Assembly: GCA_025765595.1 (NCBI GenBank)
Contig: JAIVFH010000117.1
Span: 35,834-99,833 of the forward strand
Source: Obelidium mucronatum
Taxonomy: Eukaryota; Chytridiomycota; Chytridiomycetes; Chytridiales; Chytriomycetaceae
Reading direction: 5' to 3'
Length of the DNA: 64,000 bases
The position numbers and the translations under genes were made by a program. The notes beneath the pieces are model-generated. The model did no database searches. It was not told the DNA's origin and was given only the letters and a program-made list of their open reading frames with translations. Numbering within the stretch: position 1 is the first letter of the stretch; the number at the start of each line of letters is the position of its first letter. Of the stretch, positions 34,249-43,423 are shown one piece after another.

Positions 34249-35312
34249 GCAGTCTTTTTTTTCCTTTTTTTTAGGTATAGTATTTAGTGGATGTAATTAT
34301 AAATGAGTTGCTGGTGATTCTTGGTGTTGGGGAGAGCTGATTAATCAGCAGGGTTTCTTTGACAAGCCTTTTTTGATTGAAGATGGCATGCCGTTAAAGT
34401 GCTCAATTGTCCTTTTATTGATGCGAAAGCAACAAAGATATGAATATCAGATTATTTACATTTCTAAATGCAGTCATGAAATTTGTAATGACGTTTGTCA
34501 TCTATTGAATGTTCAGCAAAGAATTCCCAAACACAAAAAAGGAAGCAGAGAGTCCATTTGGTGCCTTCTAAAAAAAAAAACTAGAAGGCACACGTCTGAT
34601 GGAAATAAGCATTATGCTGAAACGAGGGCCCTTTTTCGGAACAAATATTAGAAATTAGATTGTTTCCATTTCTGAAAAAGGATAAAAAGTGGGAAGGTCC
34701 ACCAATTTTTCTGCCTTTTTTAAGTCTCGAAAAAACTGCAAAATGAGTCTTGAAGGTGAGCTACCGCTTGGAGTCCCTGTCCCCCCCTCATGCATTTGGG
34801 TCTCTTTGGAAGGCTGTGTGGTGGTTGAATCGAAGGAGTTGGCTTGAATTGCATGGTATTGTATTGAGATCAGAAGCAACTGCCTTCTCTTGGTTGATTG
34901 GCACTCTGTTCTTCTTGATCGACCTGCAAGGCATTGATGCTTTATCCGGAACGCATTTGTGTCCCTGGGGCATTGGCTGGCAGAGGGTCCTGGCAAGGAT
35001 GGCGGCAGGATGGAAAGCTCCTGCCAACCAATTTATGCCGATATCTCTCCCCCCAAACCCCCTTCAGCGCCCCGCTTCCTTGTCTCTGCTCAATCAAACC
35101 TCACTCCTCTTTGCTTGTTTCCCGCCAATCCCAACCCAACTTGTGTGTCTTGGCATGGATCAATCCACTTCAAGCTGGGGGCTGAAGGCGGAAAATTTAA
35201 ATATTCCGAAAATTGTGTTTGTTATCAGTTGATTCTAAATGTCGAAAACAAATCACAAAACACAGACAAGCACGAGGAGCAGCTTAACAGCGATGGAAAG
35301 AAGCCGCTGAAG
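34249..35312. promoter_or_regulatory. long leader/promoter of the H+-ATPase gene
   Basis: About 1 kb without a convincing gene. Pyrimidine-rich stretches (CT-rich around 35041-35110) lie upstream of the ATPase start. The ATPase frame is open upstream to 34959, but the added residues show no homology, so I take ATG 35313 as the start. Strong promoter activity is expected for such a gene; specific sites cannot be named. Confidence 0.4.
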
Positions 35313-38176
35313 ATGGAGGAAGCCATTCACGTCGAAGTCGCCGATGAAATCTCGCCAGAACTCGAAGCCCTTTTGCACACTGAACCCTTGCAGGGTCTGA
35401 CTGACGAGCAAGTTGCTGAACGCACTGCCCAATTCGGTCTCAACGAAATCCCAGAGACCAAGACCAACCCCCTCCTCAAGTTCTTGTCTTACTTCTTGGG
35501 GCCAATTTCCTACCTTTTGGAAATCGCCTGTGTCTTGTCTGGTATCTTCGAAGACTGGATCGACTTTGGTATCTTGCTTGCCGTGTTGATCATCAACGCT
35601 TGTATCGGTTTCTTTGAAGAAGCTCGTGCTGAATCTGCCTTGGATGCCCTCAAGAACACTCTTGCCTTGAGAACCCGTGTTTGGAGAAACGGAAAGCTTG
35701 TCGAAGTTGAATCCAACACGCTTGTTCCAGGCGACATTATCGCTCTTCGTCTCGGAGACATTATTCCAGCCGATTGTCGTCTTTTGGGAGTCGGTGTCCA
35801 GGGAGAAATCTCTGAGGGTACTCTCCAAATCGACCAAGCCGCTCTTACCGGTGAATCCCTCCCAGTCAACAAGGGTAAGGGTGCCACTGCCTACTCCTCC
35901 GCTATCGTCAAGCAAGGTCAGATGTTGGCTGTTGTTACCAAGACTGGTATCCACACTTACATTGGTCGTGCCGCCAACTTGATCTCCATCACCACTGAAG
36001 AAGGTCACTTCCAAAAGATTATTAACTCCATCGGAAACTTCTTGGTCATCATCACCTGTGTATGTATCTTCTTATATTTCTACTTAAGTCTATTTTTTCG
36101 TCTCACGTATGTTCTCGGACACAGGTCATGGCTTTCGCTCTCTTCTTCATCCGTGTTTGGGCTGTGCCAGAAAACAAGGACGACGAGCTCGGAAAGAGAG
36201 TCAAGTCTGCCCTTTTGGAAGTTCTTGTTTTGACTATTGCTGCCATTCCAGTCGGTCTCCCAACCATCATGTCCGTTACCATGGCTGTCGGTGCCTCCCA
36301 GCTTGCCAAGAAGGAAGTTATCGTCAAGCGTTTGACTGCTATTGAAGAACTCGCCTCCGTCTCCATCCTTTGTTCTGACAAGACCGGTACTTTGACCATG
36401 AACAAGCTCTCCTTTGACGTTCCATACCTTTCCAACAAGGGAAACACCACTGATGACTTCGAGGGTACTGGAATCAAGTACACTGAACAAGACTTGTTGT
36501 TGCACTCCTTCTTTGCTTCTGAACCAGGAGCGCAAGATGCCATTGAATCCGCTATTCGTAAGGCTGCCCAAGAACGTGTCACTGTCCTCAAGGAGCGTGA
36601 AAACCAGGACCACCACATCCCAGGCTACAAGGTCAACAACTTTATTCCATTCAACCCAACCTCCAAGTACACTGAAGCCACTGTTACCGACCTTGCCACC
36701 GGAAAGCAATTCCGTGCCATCAAGGGTGCCCCACAAGTTATTGTTCGTATGGTTGGTGGTCACGATGAAGCTACCGCTGCCGTCAACAACTTTGCAAGAC
36801 GTGGTCTCCGTGCTCTCGGTGTTGCCCGTACTATCGACGACGCCATGACCAAGTTTGAAATGATTGGTATGATTTCTCTTCTTGACCCACCCCGTCCAGA
36901 CTCTGCCCACACCATCCAAGAATGCCACAACCTCGGAATTGCCGTCAAGATGATTACTGGTGACCAGCAAATTATCGGAAAGGAAGTTGCCCACCGTCTC
37001 GGAATGAACCGTACCATTTTGGATGCCAGCAAGTTGATGGACTCCTCCCTTGACGAAGAAGCCCTCATCGACCGTTGTGAAAAGTGTGATGGTTTCGCCC
37101 AGGTTATTCCAGAACACAAGTACAAGGTTGTTGAATTGTTGCAAAAGAGAGGATTCCTTGTTGGTATGACTGGTGACGGTGTTAACGATGCCCCAGCTTT
37201 GAAGAAGGCCAACGTCGGTATTGCCGTCGAAGGATGTACCGATGCTGCCCGTTCCGCCGCCGATATTGTTTTGCTTGCTGAAGGTCTTTCTACCATTGTC
37301 GATGGTGTCAAGTGTTCCCGTGCCATTTTCCAAAGAATGAGATCCTATGCCTTGTACCGTATTGCCTCTACCATCCACTTCTTGTTGTTCTTCTTTATCT
37401 CCATCTGTGCCTACGGATTCTCCCTTCCAGCTAGATTGATTATCTTGATTGCCGTTTTGAACGACGCCGCCACCCTCGTCATCTCTGTCGACAACGCTCA
37501 AATCTCCCAGCGCCCAGACAAGTGGCGTCTTGGACAACTCCTTACTCTTTCCTTCGTTCTCGGATTCTTGCTCATGCTTATCTCCTGGGCCCACTTCTTT
37601 GTCGGACACTACGGATTCGGTTACACCACTGCCTCTTTCGATGCCCACCCAGAAATTGAAAACTCTGGAGTCCTCCAAACCATCATGTACCTCCAAATTT
37701 CTTCCTGCCCACACTTTGTCATCTTCTCGACCCGTCTCCCAGGCTACTTTTACGAAAACATGCCATCCTGGACCTTCATTATCGCTGTCGCTGGTACCCA
37801 AGTCTTTGCCATGTTCATGTCCATCTTTGGTATCCGTGGTCTCGACGCTACTGCTATCGGTTGGGGTTGGGGTATCGGAGTTCTCCTCATCTCTACCGTC
37901 ATGTTCATGTTGCTTGATATCATCAAGGTTGCCATTATCCGCAAGTGGTCCTTTGACTTGACTGTCAAGTTGTTCCCAACCAAGGCGCGTAAGGCTGAAT
38001 TGGAAGTCCGTCTTGCCAAGCGTCAGGTCAAGGACCGTGTCAACCTTAACGTTGAGAAGGCTCGTAAGGTTCTTTACTTGACTATGGGTGTTGTTGCTTG
38101 GAAGAAGGCTGTTGAACATGCCGCCAAGAACAAGAAGATTGCTGGAAACTCTAGCTCAACTCTTGAAGTCAACTAA
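35313..38176 (+). CDS. PMA1: plasma-membrane H+-ATPase, P-type IIIA
   Basis: Two exons, 35313..36059 and 36125..38176; 932 aa. Pumps protons out of the cell and energises nutrient uptake. It has the acidic N-terminal cytosolic segment, the actuator TGES loop (ALTGESLPV), and the transport motif PVGLP in M4. It also has the phosphorylation site CSDKTGTLT (Asp ~334), KGAPQ in the nucleotide domain, MITGDQ, GDGVNDAPAL, and the M5-M6 block with LNDAATLVISVD. Codon use is strongly restricted (GGT/GGA, GCC/GCT, AAG, CGT, TTG/CTC), unlike most neighbours, as expected for one of the most abundant membrane proteins. The C-terminus lacks an obvious yeast-type SxT regulatory tail. Function is certain; symbol by family. 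Confidence 0.95.
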
Positions 38177-39197: not shown

Positions 39198-39224
39198 GGG
39201 CAGATGGCCGAGCGGTCTAAGGCG
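39198..39224 (+). tRNA. 5' part of tRNA-Leu(AAG), interrupted
   Basis: Bases 39198-39204 are the 5' acceptor strand. They are followed by TG, a 3-bp D stem with a Leu-type D loop, and G26. The match to the class II leucine tRNA pattern, including the A-box, is exact. The remaining 55 nucleotides lie 4,144 bases downstream at 43369-43423. Together they form an 82-nt cloverleaf; alone this is half a gene. Confidence 0.88.
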
Positions 39225-39642
39225 GTATGGTAAAATGGCAGAATTTCCGTGGGAAAAAAAAATGAGACAGATGAAGTCCCATCACTCCATCGGCATCTGC
39301 CACCAACCAACACTGTCCGCCTTCGGCAAACGCCATGTATAGGCCATTGGAACTACTAGGAGCAAGCAGGGATGCGGTGGGAGGGGAAAGGGAGAGGGGA
39401 ATGGGCCGATCGCTCCACCAGGTGTTCTGGGTTTGCAAGCGACGCAGCAAACTCATGGCAACCTGATGGAGACTATAGAGCTGGATCGGGGCGGGGCGTC
39501 GAATCGGAGCTCGCTGGTTTGTAGTGGTGGGGAAGTTTACCTTCAGGAGTCTTCCGCATTGGCGAGGATTTTTGAATGATTTAAATAAAAGTATCACAAC
39601 AATAAAACCAATATATTCCAAATAATTCCAAAATAAACACAT
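39217..39642 (-). other. open frame at the left end of the element
   Basis: A 141-codon frame in the element's left 440 bases, between its edge and the recombinase stop. The interior (LLRRLQTQNTWWSDRPIPLSL, then SNGLYMAFAEGGQCWLVAD) has protein-like composition and higher GC than its surroundings. I recognise no family, and the frame runs a few codons into the tRNA. It may be a captured fragment, a small accessory gene or chance. Confidence 0.2.
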
Positions 39643-42600
39643 CCACCTTAATTAAAAGCATCCGTTTTGTTTCAACCACTTACTCCCGTTTTTTTTCTCT
39701 TACGTTCCGCAGCTCGTTCCGCAGCACGTATTTCAGATTGCTGTTTCTCGAACACACCCATTCCAAAGTCGTCCCGCTCCACAGACTTTGTTTGGCCCAT
39801 AATGTTAAAGGAGTAACCAACAACACTTCGGTTCGGATCATTCGTATTGGAGGTATTGTAGATGGCGAAACGGATGTCCTGGTCCAAAGCTTTACAGGCA
39901 GCATCAACGTCCAAAGATTCCGCAGCCATTTTGTCCTTGACATGGCCCACAATAGTTTGATAGCGAGAGTAAGTATTAGAAATCTTACTTCTCCACAGTG
40001 ATCCATGGCGCAAATTGTACAAACGGAAGTGTTTCGTGGCACAATCGTAGATTTCTTTGGATGATTTGAAGTTTTTCCCACCGAGGTTGCGAAGGCTGCA
40101 GATGGGAACATTCACATTGAATGGATCGTCCGGATTGAAAGGGCGGGAGTATTCCAGTCTGAAGGGCCCATCTTCAAGAACAATAGGTGGTGGCTCGTCG
40201 CTTGGCACCATTGCAGATGACTCCGGTTGCTCAACAGCAGGAGCAATGACACTTTCTGGCAGTTGATTGGAGACTGTTGCCTCCATTTCGTTCGATTCAC
40301 TTGATGATCCCGTCTCAGATATTGTTGGTGATGATCCCGCCTCAGATATTGTTGGCGATTTGTCCATCATTTTCTTGAATTCCTTCTTGAATTCAGTTAA
40401 CAGTTGGGTCTTGAGCGTTTCCATTAACTCAGGAAAAACGGCTTTAAAAGCTCCAACAGGAGTTGAATCCTCATTTAATTTTCCGAGGGCTTCTCGGCGT
40501 CCATGTTCCACACGACTGCGAACTTGGGCACAAACATCCTCAAATTCAGCCGTTTTCAAACCAGGTAGATTATCAAACAGCCATTTAACTAATTTAGAAA
40601 CATATATGATTATAGGTAGGTAAAATAAAGAAGTGCATTGAATTCAAGTATGATTACCTGGTTTTGTATCATAAACTTTGCTGTACAGCCGCACGTAAGC
40701 CATATTATAATAGAAGCAGTTTGCTGATGCCTCCCACCAGTCGCAAATCACTTTCAGCGATTCTAATCCATTGTACACCCATTTGCTCTGATCGGCATCC
40801 CAATACTGAGCAAGTTCCTTGCATTTGACAGGGTCATTCAGGGCATCACGAAAGCGCACAATGGCTCCATTGAAAACCAAGGAGCTAAGAGACGATGGTA
40901 TCGGAACTCGGCGCCATATAATGATTTTGGTAGCAAATGGGTCATGATCGGCGGTAGCTTTGACAACCTAAAACACACTTTAAAAAAATAAACTAAAATA
41001 AAAATAATAAAATACCGTGTCGGGAGTGCTTTTGGCATAATGAGCATCAGTGACATCTTTACCCTCCTTGTCGGTGAAGTTCCAGAGAGATTTGTAGTGG
41101 TCAGTTGGAACATCTTTCTTCTTCAACAGTTCAACGTGCACCGTTCGCATGGCATGAAGAGCTTTATCTTCAATTTTTACGCGGAGATGTTCAAACAGCT
41201 TGTTCATTTGGGCGTTCATTGCAGGAGACGAGAAGGCCTTTTCGCTGGAGTTTCCTTCAAACACGTAACTCTTCCGCAGCGCGTCAATACCGCCCATGAA
41301 ATTTGGTGGGGCATCTCCATATCCATGTACGTCAATCATCATTGCTAGAATATTTGCAAACATGAAACATTTCCATGGAGTTGCTGCTTCACCAAGGCAG
41401 AAGAAATGGGTGTCCGATTGACCTTTCTTAGCCAATAGTGACTAATAAAAGCTTTTTTTAAAAAAAATCGCCGTTTCAATATAGATAACTCACATGAGTC
41501 TTGGTTCCGGAAATTTTGAATCTTGTGCCGTACAGCGTATCACCCTCACTTGCTCCCAATTTCACGCCAGCTTGGGCGGCAAGGAGTTTCTTACTTGGAT
41601 CACAGTGGAGTGAAAGGCTCCCAACCTCAGAGTAGTCGACTCCCTGTAAATCCTGTGCACGCCCACCACACAAACAGTCAGCGGTCCAGACTTTTAACAA
41701 TTTCAATCCAGCCGGCTCTGCAGTCCCACGATGTCTCACAACACAAAATTCAAACGCTCTTTCATACAAATCCGGTTCTAGAAATTTATCAATAGCACCA
41801 GAGATGTTGTTGAATGGGTCTCGGCTGTGTTTTCTGTAGCGGCCGTAGGTTAGTAGGAAAACAGCAAGACTCCCAAAAACTTACTTGTCAGCGGCCGCTG
41901 CAGAAAAAGAATTCGAATCTTTGATAACATCTGCGTGGGCTTTGCAGGCATTCCTGTCTTCGCAGCACAGATCCTCTCCTGGTGATAGGGGGGAAACAAG
42001 GGGCTCGAAAAAGGTTGCCGCTGCTTTATGAGAGGCATTAACAGTGGACTGAGTTACAGGAAGGTTAACCAGAAAGAATTGTCTCGGAATGTACTCACCC
42101 CTTTTTTTCCACGATCGCCTGTATATTTTCCCCGTTTTGATGGCCTTTCGAATTGGAGTTTCAAGAAAATGTTGACACAAGTCCCCGTAATTTTCCAATA
42201 ATAATCAGCAAGAAACGCTGTATTTGGGGTTGTTTCGACATAGGAGGACATTAAATCCTAAAAAAGATAGTGAATTTTTATGAAGGGTATGAAGCGCCTG
42301 CCATACCATATAATCGCAGAAGTAACGGTAGTCGGACATCCAAGTACTAAGTGGGCCGGCGATGATGGTCGCTGCCTTGCTAACCGACATGGATAACAAG
42401 GAGCCGCCATTTTCCAACAGTGTTGATTCCTTTTCCACGTATTTTAAAATGAGATTGTTGAATCGTTTGTCGAAACGAAGGCAGTAGGCAATGGTCATAA
42501 TGCCCTCGTGCAGAGTCGCGTCAACTGCAGCGATGTTAGCAGACAAATAAAAAAATACCAACAAAACACACCAGTTTGAACCAGCGACCACCAAGAAAGC

Positions 42601-43368
42601 ATGGTTTTCTTGGCCTCTTGGCGTTCATCTGCGTATCGGAAGCCCGGCGCTGCTTTGTGGACATCGATTTTTGGATCCAGGGTGAATGGGAGGTCTTTAG
42701 GGACAAGAGGTACGTCTAATGACGGGTCTTTGCTGATTAATGCCCGCTTTGGATCAATAGCATCGTCTTCGTCATCATCCAACTTTGGCTCTTCGGGATT
42801 TGGCTCCGATCCTTCCTCTTGGTTCTTCTTTCGACGGCCAGTCCTTTTCTTAGGAGGTTCGTCGCCTGCGTTTTCATCAGCCGTCTTTGCCGGTCGTCCG
42901 CGCTTCTTTTTGGACGGGGTTTCGGCGGTTGGGTTAGGGTTTTCCTGAATTGGCGCCTTGATCCATCCTTTACGGCCGCGCGGTTTGTACACTTGGCCGT
43001 TTGCACCGATTTTGACAGGTGCTAAATTGTCAGATGGAAGTAAATATAATAAAAAGAATATTAAATAACAAGTACCAAAAACAACGAACGAACTTACGAG
43101 GTTCATATCGCAACAAGCAGTCCTTACATGCGCGGTCGTTTCTTGTCATAGCGCGGCCCTTTTCAGTCACAGCCGAGGAGTGTGGTGAGGAGCAGTGATC
43201 GGTTGTATGGACGACGTGCTTAGGCTGACCTAAAGCGCACTGCACCCCTTTGCGCTCCTCCGTAACAGTCTCGTTACAAGTGATGCAGAACACGGCCGAT
43301 GGCTGTGAGGCCGTCGCTGCTGTGCCTCGGTTTGTGTTGGCTGGTCGATTGGTAGCAGAATCCAACAC
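39225..43368. mobile_element. Crypton-like tyrosine-recombinase element inserted in tRNA-Leu
   Basis: The boundaries are set by the tRNA: removing 39225-43368 gives an uninterrupted tRNA-Leu(AAG). Length 4,144 bases. I find no convincing terminal inverted repeat, LTR or target-site duplication, as expected for tyrosine-recombinase elements and unlike DDE transposons or retrotransposons. The only large gene is the recombinase, reading from right to left. A short direct repeat (GGCAGAATTTCC near 39237-39248; AGCAGAATCC near 43355-43364) lies just inside each end and might be a recombinase-binding site. The insertion separates the pol III A box from the B box by over 4 kb, so the host tRNA copy is probably inactive. 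Confidence 0.8.
39672..43368 (-). CDS. tyrosine recombinase of the tRNA-inserted element
   Basis: Nine exons: 43368..43098, 43021..42572, 42524..42307, 42257..42099, 42048..41885, 41833..41494, 41441..41016, 40967..40658 and 40588..39672; all phases agree, 1,084 codons. N-terminus: Cys/His-rich (CITC...C...H...HC...CKDC, ~26-85), a probable zinc fold. Then a Lys-rich linker with an AT-hook (KKKRGRPAK, ~128-136). Catalytic region: CGGRAQDLQGVD (Arg ~478), ALHAMRTVHVELL (His ~630, Arg ~633) and DAHYAKSTPD (Tyr ~669); the Arg-to-Tyr spacing of 36 is normal for the family. A C-terminal ~190-residue domain may bind DNA and ends basic (RKRKKTG). No ATG precedes the Cys region: the frame is open exactly to the tRNA, where the next codon is a stop. 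Translation start unresolved. Confidence 0.75.
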
Positions 43369-43423
43369 TCACGTTAAGGCCGTGATCTATTCGTAGGCGT
43401 GGGTTCGAATCCCACTCTGCTCA
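43369..43423 (+). tRNA. 3' part of tRNA-Leu(AAG), interrupted
   Basis: Anticodon arm 43369-43385 (5-bp stem TCACG/CGTGA, loop TTAAGGC, anticodon AAG at 43375-43377 reading shift checked as T-T-AAG-G-C). Then a class II variable arm (TCTA-TTCG-TAGG), a T arm with the B box GGTTCGAATCC, and the 3' acceptor strand TCTGCTC plus discriminator A. It pairs fully with the 5' strand at 39198-39204 (one G-T wobble). The anticodon triplet itself is 43376-43378. CCA is not encoded, as in eukaryotes. Confidence 0.88.

Follow-up and report, generated by a model that had tools for sequence, protein, structure and literature searches.

A probable Crypton-like element in a split leucine tRNA gene of the chytrid Obelidium mucronatum

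A split leucine tRNA gene and its insert

The draft genome of the chytrid Obelidium mucronatum comprises 48.3 Mb in 694 contigs of about 10 kb or more, the last of which (C694) is 10,014 bp long, and all genome searches reported here were made in this one assembly. On contig C117, a stretch of 64,000 nucleotides (the window; position 1 is its first letter) contains a tRNA-Leu(AAG) gene in two parts, separated by an insert that encodes a predicted tyrosine recombinase. The insert belongs to an element family termed A; a second, homologous family is termed B. The locus consists of the following features:

39198..39224, plus strand: 5′ part of the tRNA-Leu(AAG) gene, nucleotides 1-27 (acceptor 5′ strand, A box and D arm, through G26), the same as the 5′ part of uninterrupted copies and recognized in the joined fold
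39225..43368, no strand assigned: family A element, right-truncated copy of 4,144 bp, missing from 46 uninterrupted paralogs; a 97% identical copy on C309 runs past 43368
39225..39257, plus strand: left end of the element (GTATGGTAAAATGG...), of which GTAT..GGTAAAAT matches the joined ends of family B (shuffle tests)
43369..43423, plus strand: 3′ part of the tRNA-Leu(AAG) gene, 55 nt (anticodon arm, variable arm, T arm with B box and acceptor 3′ strand), recognized in the fold of the joined parts

As it stands, the window yields no tRNA call with ARAGORN, and the tRNA gene is simply broken. When the 27-nt and 55-nt parts are joined, the resulting 82 nt fold in the same program as a class II tRNA-Leu(AAG). 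The original prediction, made from the letters of the window, had read the two flanks as parts of one such gene around an insert of 4,144 bp, and this proved exact to the base. Uninterrupted 82-nt copies, for which it had also called, exist in the genome: of 24 read base by base, 16 are exact, four have one or two mismatches in the 27-nt part and four have one mismatch in the 55-nt part. Among the matches listed, the 55-nt part recurs with 100% identity at 25 places outside the window. An empty paralog on C224 resembles the window site in its nearest flanks (87/95 and 88/97 aligned bases within 100 bp), with the likeness of its left flank fading within 1 kb (310/346 aligned).

A census of tRNA-Leu genes was made with 22-nt 3′ and 20-nt 5′ patterns at no more than two mismatches, all leucine isoacceptors being pooled and more diverged pieces escaping it. 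The 51 3′ parts and 52 5′ parts matched pair into 46 uninterrupted genes and four split ones (C117, C66, C176 and C158, with gaps of 1.3-4.7 kb), leaving a lone 3′ part on C309 and lone 5′ parts on C56 and C6. All five damaged 3′ parts adjoin copies of family A (the window and C309) or family B (C66, C176 and C158). Fifty-one genes of about 82 bp amount to some 0.009% of the 48.3 Mb, yet five of five A and B copies in the searched genome adjoin tRNA-Leu, and chance is therefore a poor account of their location. The search for the same protein beside other tRNA halves, made with DNA and protein queries against the 694 contigs, thus returned C309 for family A and the homologous B at C66, C176 and C158. 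Copies with random flanks outside tRNA genes, named in the original prediction as evidence against it, were not found for A or B: a sixth copy, known through an annotated protein (P0002, see below), also reads into a tRNA-Leu flank.

Two further loci are of note. The lone 5′ part at C56:24862-24888 is cut between nucleotides 26 and 27, as is the window gene, and is followed by unrelated sequence, the next 7 kb of which show no likeness to A or B. At C143:34070-57914, ten tRNA-Leu(AAG) genes form an array, mostly 2.1-2.5 kb apart with one gap of about 5.5 kb; this array is a reservoir of targets for such elements.

The recombinase gene of family A

The gene in the window lies on the minus strand in nine exons, separated by GT-AG introns that were chosen by eye. 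In the direction of the gene these are:

43098..43368, minus strand: first retained exon, its 5′ end cut by the right junction, with a CxxC...CxxC stretch that we take to be zinc-finger-like (gene model)
42572..43021, minus strand: exon with basic KKKRGRP and RPRGRKG stretches, presumably AT-hook-like (gene model)
42307..42524, minus strand: exon (gene model)
42099..42257, minus strand: exon (gene model)
41885..42048, minus strand: exon (gene model)
41494..41833, minus strand: exon with the first catalytic-type arginine, R479 (codon from 41661; gene model)
41016..41441, minus strand: exon with H630xxR633 (41156-41145), W654 (41084) and Y669 (41039); H, R, W and Y are kept in family B
40658..40967, minus strand: exon (gene model)
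39672..40588, minus strand: last exon, with a weak GCR1_C-like domain (about residues 971-1015) and the stop codon (gene model, profile searches)

The reading of 1,084 codons on which the original prediction was built is real, as these exons contain no internal stop. It has no start codon of its own, though: the frame begins at the right junction, and a sister copy is longer by about 685 bp. Tyrosine recombinases are expected to present their residues in the order R...HxxR...W...Y. The R-HxxR-Y residues noticed earlier are present in that order, with W654 in addition, and the protein is accordingly called a putative recombinase from motif and homology. No useful terminal repeats were found inside the window element.

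The sister copy, on C309, is 97% identical to the window copy over 2.8 kb. At the equivalent of window position 43369 it stays in frame for the remainder of the exon and one or two more, in all 685 bp, and only then does its tRNA-Leu sequence start, from within the anticodon on. The annotated protein P0001 of C309 begins in the first of these further exons, and the extra stretch of about 685 bp occurs once in the genome searched. Because the C309 gene continues in frame beyond the right junction of the window, the window copy is not full length. The proposal that its 4,144 bp form a complete element, with its own ends between nucleotides 26 and 27, was rejected since its right end corresponds to a point within the C309 gene. 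C309 itself has lost its left end. TTAGGG-like repeats (locus L009, 6557-6577) lie about 240 bp after its tRNA part, and a chromosome end may lie near the C309 locus.

Between the two copies, exons differ at 33/2335 sites and introns at 16/432. Since 23 synonymous changes per 521 sites stand against 10 nonsynonymous per 1810 (dN/dS about 0.13), the counts indicate that the A protein is under purifying selection across the divergence of these copies. A third copy is represented by the annotated protein P0002, on a contig of 7,203 bp outside the 694-contig set. Its tail, TARPSALHHVEMALSH..., is the exact reverse reading of a tRNA-Leu 5′ part and flank of the C143 array. For its implied splice acceptor, tRNA bases that follow the D-loop GGT are required, which places the left junction of this copy beyond the D-loop. 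Family A therefore occurs in three flank types: that of C117, that of C309 (whose right flank is like C139) and the C143 type.

A second family in the D-loop

At C66 and C176, family B occupies 4,744 bp between GAGCGGT and GGTCTAAGGCG of a tRNA-Leu(CAA) gene, that is, in the D-loop, with GGT on both sides. Its protein model has 1,134 amino acids and reads through in both copies; the first short exon is a guess. A 1.3-kb internal-deletion derivative of B lies at the same point on C158, but in a tRNA-Leu(AAG) gene. The position between nucleotides 26 and 27, put forward in the original prediction, does not hold as a general site, as family B uses the D-loop GGT instead. The A and B proteins share 24% identity over 278 residues (E 8e-14), with H, R, W and Y among the invariant residues. 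Both families adjoin or split tRNA-Leu(AAG) or tRNA-Leu(CAA) with the recombinase gene antisense to the tRNA, and the gene start, where present, is near the tRNA 3′ part.

Including the tRNA 5′ part, B is identical at C66 and C176 over 4,763/4,763 bp, while the flanks of the two loci differ by 1-6% (right, 17/1430; left, 46/959 aligned bases). This disparity points to recent movement or conversion of B. The two loci may also be alleles, and B is therefore credited with at least two independent sites, not three. The flanks of C117 and C158 are also alike (left, 787/791 aligned bases alike over 800; right, 1924/1975 over 2000), and by this likeness the C158 locus is the window locus or a recent duplicate of it; the pair may be allelic. 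One tRNA-Leu(AAG) gene consequently carries different elements in its two versions, A between nucleotides 26 and 27 on C117 and deleted B in the D-loop on C158. The count of independent sites is at least three for A, one of them through P0002 only, and two for B.

In family A, AGGC(G) at the D-arm base adjoins the window junction, and the C309 junction is 8 nt further, beside a second AAGGC of the same tRNA. When the C309 right end is joined to the window left end, about 40 nt can be aligned with the joined ends of B, and none of 5000 shuffles did as well; for the window left end alone, 70 of 5000 did. Because of this alignment we infer that C309 preserves the true right end of A, with an exchange point shifted by a few bases from that of B.

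Relationship to CryptonF

Comparisons with published systems, here and below, draw on parts of the papers cited. CryptonF elements are fungal tyrosine-recombinase DNA transposons whose proteins combine a recombinase with a GCR1_C domain, and most fungal members have 6-bp terminal direct repeats (Kojima and Jurka, 2011; PMC3212892). A and B resemble them in their single large protein, recombinase residues, weak GCR1_C-like C-terminus and fungal host, and in that no reverse transcriptase was found. They differ in their tRNA-gene target, in domain scores below cut-off and in the terminal repeats, of which A has none at the window and B has 3 bp (GGT); A has, in addition, extra N-terminal zinc-finger-like and basic regions (PMC3212892).

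The fit to CryptonF is based on weak matches in Pfam, all below cut-offs. Against GCR1_C (cut-off 23), the C-terminus of B scores 18.4 bits (E 0.0026) and A scores 13.8-15.1 bits in hmmscan; in a six-frame search of the genome with this profile, A and B rank just under the 12 matches above cut-off. The core of B matches NDC10_II with E 0.046. On C293, a stretch like this core (E 2.5e-6) lies beside an NDC10_II match on the same strand (E 0.004). The A and B proteins scanned had no Pfam match to a reverse transcriptase, a DDE domain or DUF3435. A and B each encode one large multi-exon protein, probably of CryptonF-like type, and since 6-bp terminal repeats are absent, the elements are termed CryptonF-like and not proven CryptonF.

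Relatives in the genome vary in preservation. At the contig edge C496:1-1430, a relative of A (50-56% amino-acid identity) matches residues 287-460 and 788-1081 side by side in the DNA, so that the recombinase stretch is missing and the C-terminal domain kept; it would represent either a product of deletion or a DNA-binding protein that has been co-opted. Two pieces of about 110-160 bp at C208:18432-18710 are 74-80% identical to the 5′ gene region of B, and the glutamine-rich repeat of B has many short matches in the genome. More distant recombinase relatives occur on C144/C366, C114, C56, C16 and C293. None is beside tRNA-Leu halves in the census, and 1.8 kb of C144 that was read contains no tRNA. 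Protein searches for relatives (at most 100 words each) returned three proteins in all, each from O. mucronatum, and searches with the C-terminal A relative gave nothing usable. Three GCR1_C-like pieces (C88:49135-49305, C88:31876-32046 and C293:20679-20849), each containing one TAG, are followed 831-837 nt downstream by intact tRNA-Leu genes in the same direction, and perhaps represent older Crypton remains.

Insertion into leucine tRNA genes and alternative explanations

We consider it quite probable that the insert in the window is a copy, truncated on the right, of a fungal element that is likely mobile and is likely inserted into leucine tRNA genes by its predicted tyrosine recombinase. 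Since other copies of those genes are whole in the same genome, A and B appear to be aimed at them. The idea of a eukaryotic mobile family that uses tRNA genes as its integration site thus survives as a family with a likely tyrosine recombinase and five of five copies at tRNA-Leu, without the complete element ending between nucleotides 26 and 27. In such a family, the element would leave as a double-stranded circle, and the recombinase would pair the joined ends of the circle with the D-arm region of a tRNA-Leu gene and exchange strands there. The exchange point would be the D-loop GGT for B and a point beside AGGC(G) at the D-arm base for A, with C309 joining 8 nt further, inside the anticodon. 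Multicopy tRNA genes would make insertion tolerable, and in B the right end of the element may replace the lost tRNA 5′ part. The window copy has likely lost some 685 bp of its right end, as far as the tRNA, through an aberrant or later event, and it is therefore probably no longer mobile on its own.

Several results weigh against this interpretation. The C496 and C208 relatives, which have no tRNA-Leu part in the census, are the results most at odds with a strict target. The window copy of A has no direct repeat at its junctions (0 bp), and the two readable junctions of A (window left and C309 right), being 8 nt apart in the tRNA, are loose for a site-specific recombinase. Under the truncation model it is a coincidence that the right junction of the window copy, though internal to the gene, falls exactly at the point of insertion. 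The end sequence of A was assembled from two copies, each damaged on one side. The flanks of C66 and C176 are similar to each other. Every Pfam score for A and B is under the curated cut-offs, and no recombinase was found among the PDB sequence matches (four chance-level matches only) or PHROG matches. Finally, no A or B similarity was found in the loci fetched for the lone 5′ parts at C56 and C6, and tRNA-Leu genes therefore break in other ways too.

Some of these observations would also be expected if fragments of the elements had been captured passively where highly transcribed tRNA genes had broken, with no part played by site-specific recombination. The internal right junction of the window copy, the lost left end of C309, the 1.3-kb deletion derivative on C158, the A junctions without direct repeat and the lone 5′ parts are all in keeping with capture. 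It is nonetheless unlikely, because separate insertions have the target isotype and orientation in common and their ends are homologous to one another, the left junction of A is seen again in a second tRNA context, and the only A or B copies found away from tRNA-Leu parts are the diverged C208 pieces and the C496 relative. A single old insertion, copied along as tRNA-Leu loci were duplicated within larger segments, would explain the likeness of flanks (96-100% for C117/C158 and 94-99% for C66/C176) and suits a genome with ten tRNA-Leu genes arrayed on C143. This, too, appears quite improbable, given that the same tRNA gene holds one element on C117 and another, at a different position, on C158, A occurs in three flank types, B occupies both Leu(CAA) and Leu(AAG) genes, and B is 100% identical where its flanks are not.

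Insertion by a DDE transposase, with the R-HxxR-Y pattern arising by chance, is suggested by Dada elements: in zebrafish, Dada-tL sits within tRNA-Leu genes and duplicates GCGTTCA (PMC3706591), a sequence close to the GGCG/TCACG of the window junction. Dada, though, makes duplications of 6-7 bp, as against none at the window site and only GGT in B (PMC3706591; PMC8869645). Furthermore, no DDE family matches A or B in Pfam, no Dada profile being among those scanned. The residues that A and B have in common include H, R, W and Y, with a recombinase-like spacing, and such domain matches as were obtained, all weak, are to NDC10_II and GCR1_C. We regard this explanation as very improbable.

Possible rebuilding of the tRNA gene by family B

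At the right ends of B, ARAGORN reports a tRNA whose 5′ part comes from the element and whose 3′ part is that of the host. These calls were rejected as proof of rebuilding, since controls with shuffled or random 5′ sequence were also called as tRNA in 489-828/2000 cases per test. Scores with the Rfam tRNA model (cut-off 29) are 31.5 bits each for C66 and C176 and 29.1 for C158, compared with 53-57 bits for native tRNA-Leu genes. The right ends of A (window and C309), where the host 3′ half is much the same, give no tRNA match. The B fusion has seven of seven acceptor pairs at the right distance, which is found in only 0.3-1.0% of controls.

These values make rebuilding by the right end of B possible. 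RNA polymerase III promoters lie inside the tRNA gene, so its 5′ side could be exchanged without loss of transcription. A tentative and rather doubtful extension is that Crypton-like elements recombine at the tRNA-Leu D arm and carry a substitute 5′ tRNA end, as a eukaryotic counterpart of bacterial tRNA-integrating islands; the host tRNA gene would then be both target and repaired. The GGGCAG at the right end of B may instead be a recombinase binding site that mimics a tRNA start, for which the chances are close to even. The low Rfam scores of the fused tRNAs, the readiness of ARAGORN to call controls and an A box that is poor by eye are what such a site would give; the rarity of complete acceptor pairing among controls, and the three of three B right ends that reach the Rfam cut-off where those of A have no match, are not.

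Comparison with known target-specific elements

tRNA genes are standard landing sites of bacterial and archaeal tyrosine-recombinase elements, in which the 3′ part of the gene is preferred and rebuilt. A and B share with these elements precise insertion in a tRNA gene for which uninterrupted empty sites exist. They are also alike in aiming a tyrosine recombinase at a tRNA gene and in that an element end may rebuild part of it (PMC8371274), and they differ in their eukaryotic host, in cutting the gene in the D arm or between nucleotides 26 and 27, and in separating the 5′ and not the 3′ part.

Among eukaryotes, target-specific DNA transposons named in a 2022 paper include Pokey in 28S rRNA genes, CryptonV in microsatellites and Dada in small RNA genes (PMC8869645). 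Dada elements provide the closest parallel in position, being eukaryotic DNA transposons at fixed points inside tRNA genes, tRNA-Leu included, but they are set apart by their DDE transposase and 6-7 bp target duplications, where A has 0 bp at the window and B has 3 bp (PMC3706591; PMC8869645). Starships of the Enterprise family insert in 5S rDNA; those such as Osiris are, like A and B, fungal and driven by a tyrosine recombinase, and they insert in and fragment the multicopy 5S rDNA, an RNA polymerase III gene (PMC12153272). Mean Starship lengths are 19-138 kb among the rows listed, with cargo, in contrast to 4.7-4.8 kb and a tRNA-Leu target for A and B (PMC12153272). The recombinases of endogenous nimaviruses targeted to 28S rDNA and telomeres are likewise eukaryotic tyrosine recombinases tied to one multicopy site, though they belong to viral genomes and have other targets (PMC10871703).

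In their gene content, A and B have one gene model per 4.1-4.8 kb and no DUF3435 match, whereas Starships are characterized by a DUF3435 captain and cargo genes. In the parts of the literature covered, site-specific eukaryotic tyrosine-recombinase elements use microsatellites, 5S or 28S rDNA, or telomere repeats. No report of such an element inside tRNA genes was found among the open-access literature matches listed, subscription journals and Repbase Reports being outside that scope. What is likely new here is a Crypton-like element with a clear, testable tRNA-Leu target in a eukaryote, the parallels with DDE transposases (Dada) and with 5S rDNA (Starships) being already known. If fungal Crypton-like elements have indeed reached the same tRNA solution as prokaryotic ones, they would be a clean case of convergence. 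They would also provide a fixed, tolerable target in a eukaryote, at which the use of the D arm by a recombinase and the survival of a tRNA gene after insertion could be tested.

Just to the left of the element, window positions 34959-38173 contain pieces of a P-type cation-transporter ATPase (Cation_ATPase_N, E1-E2_ATPase and Hydrolase), an ordinary host gene.

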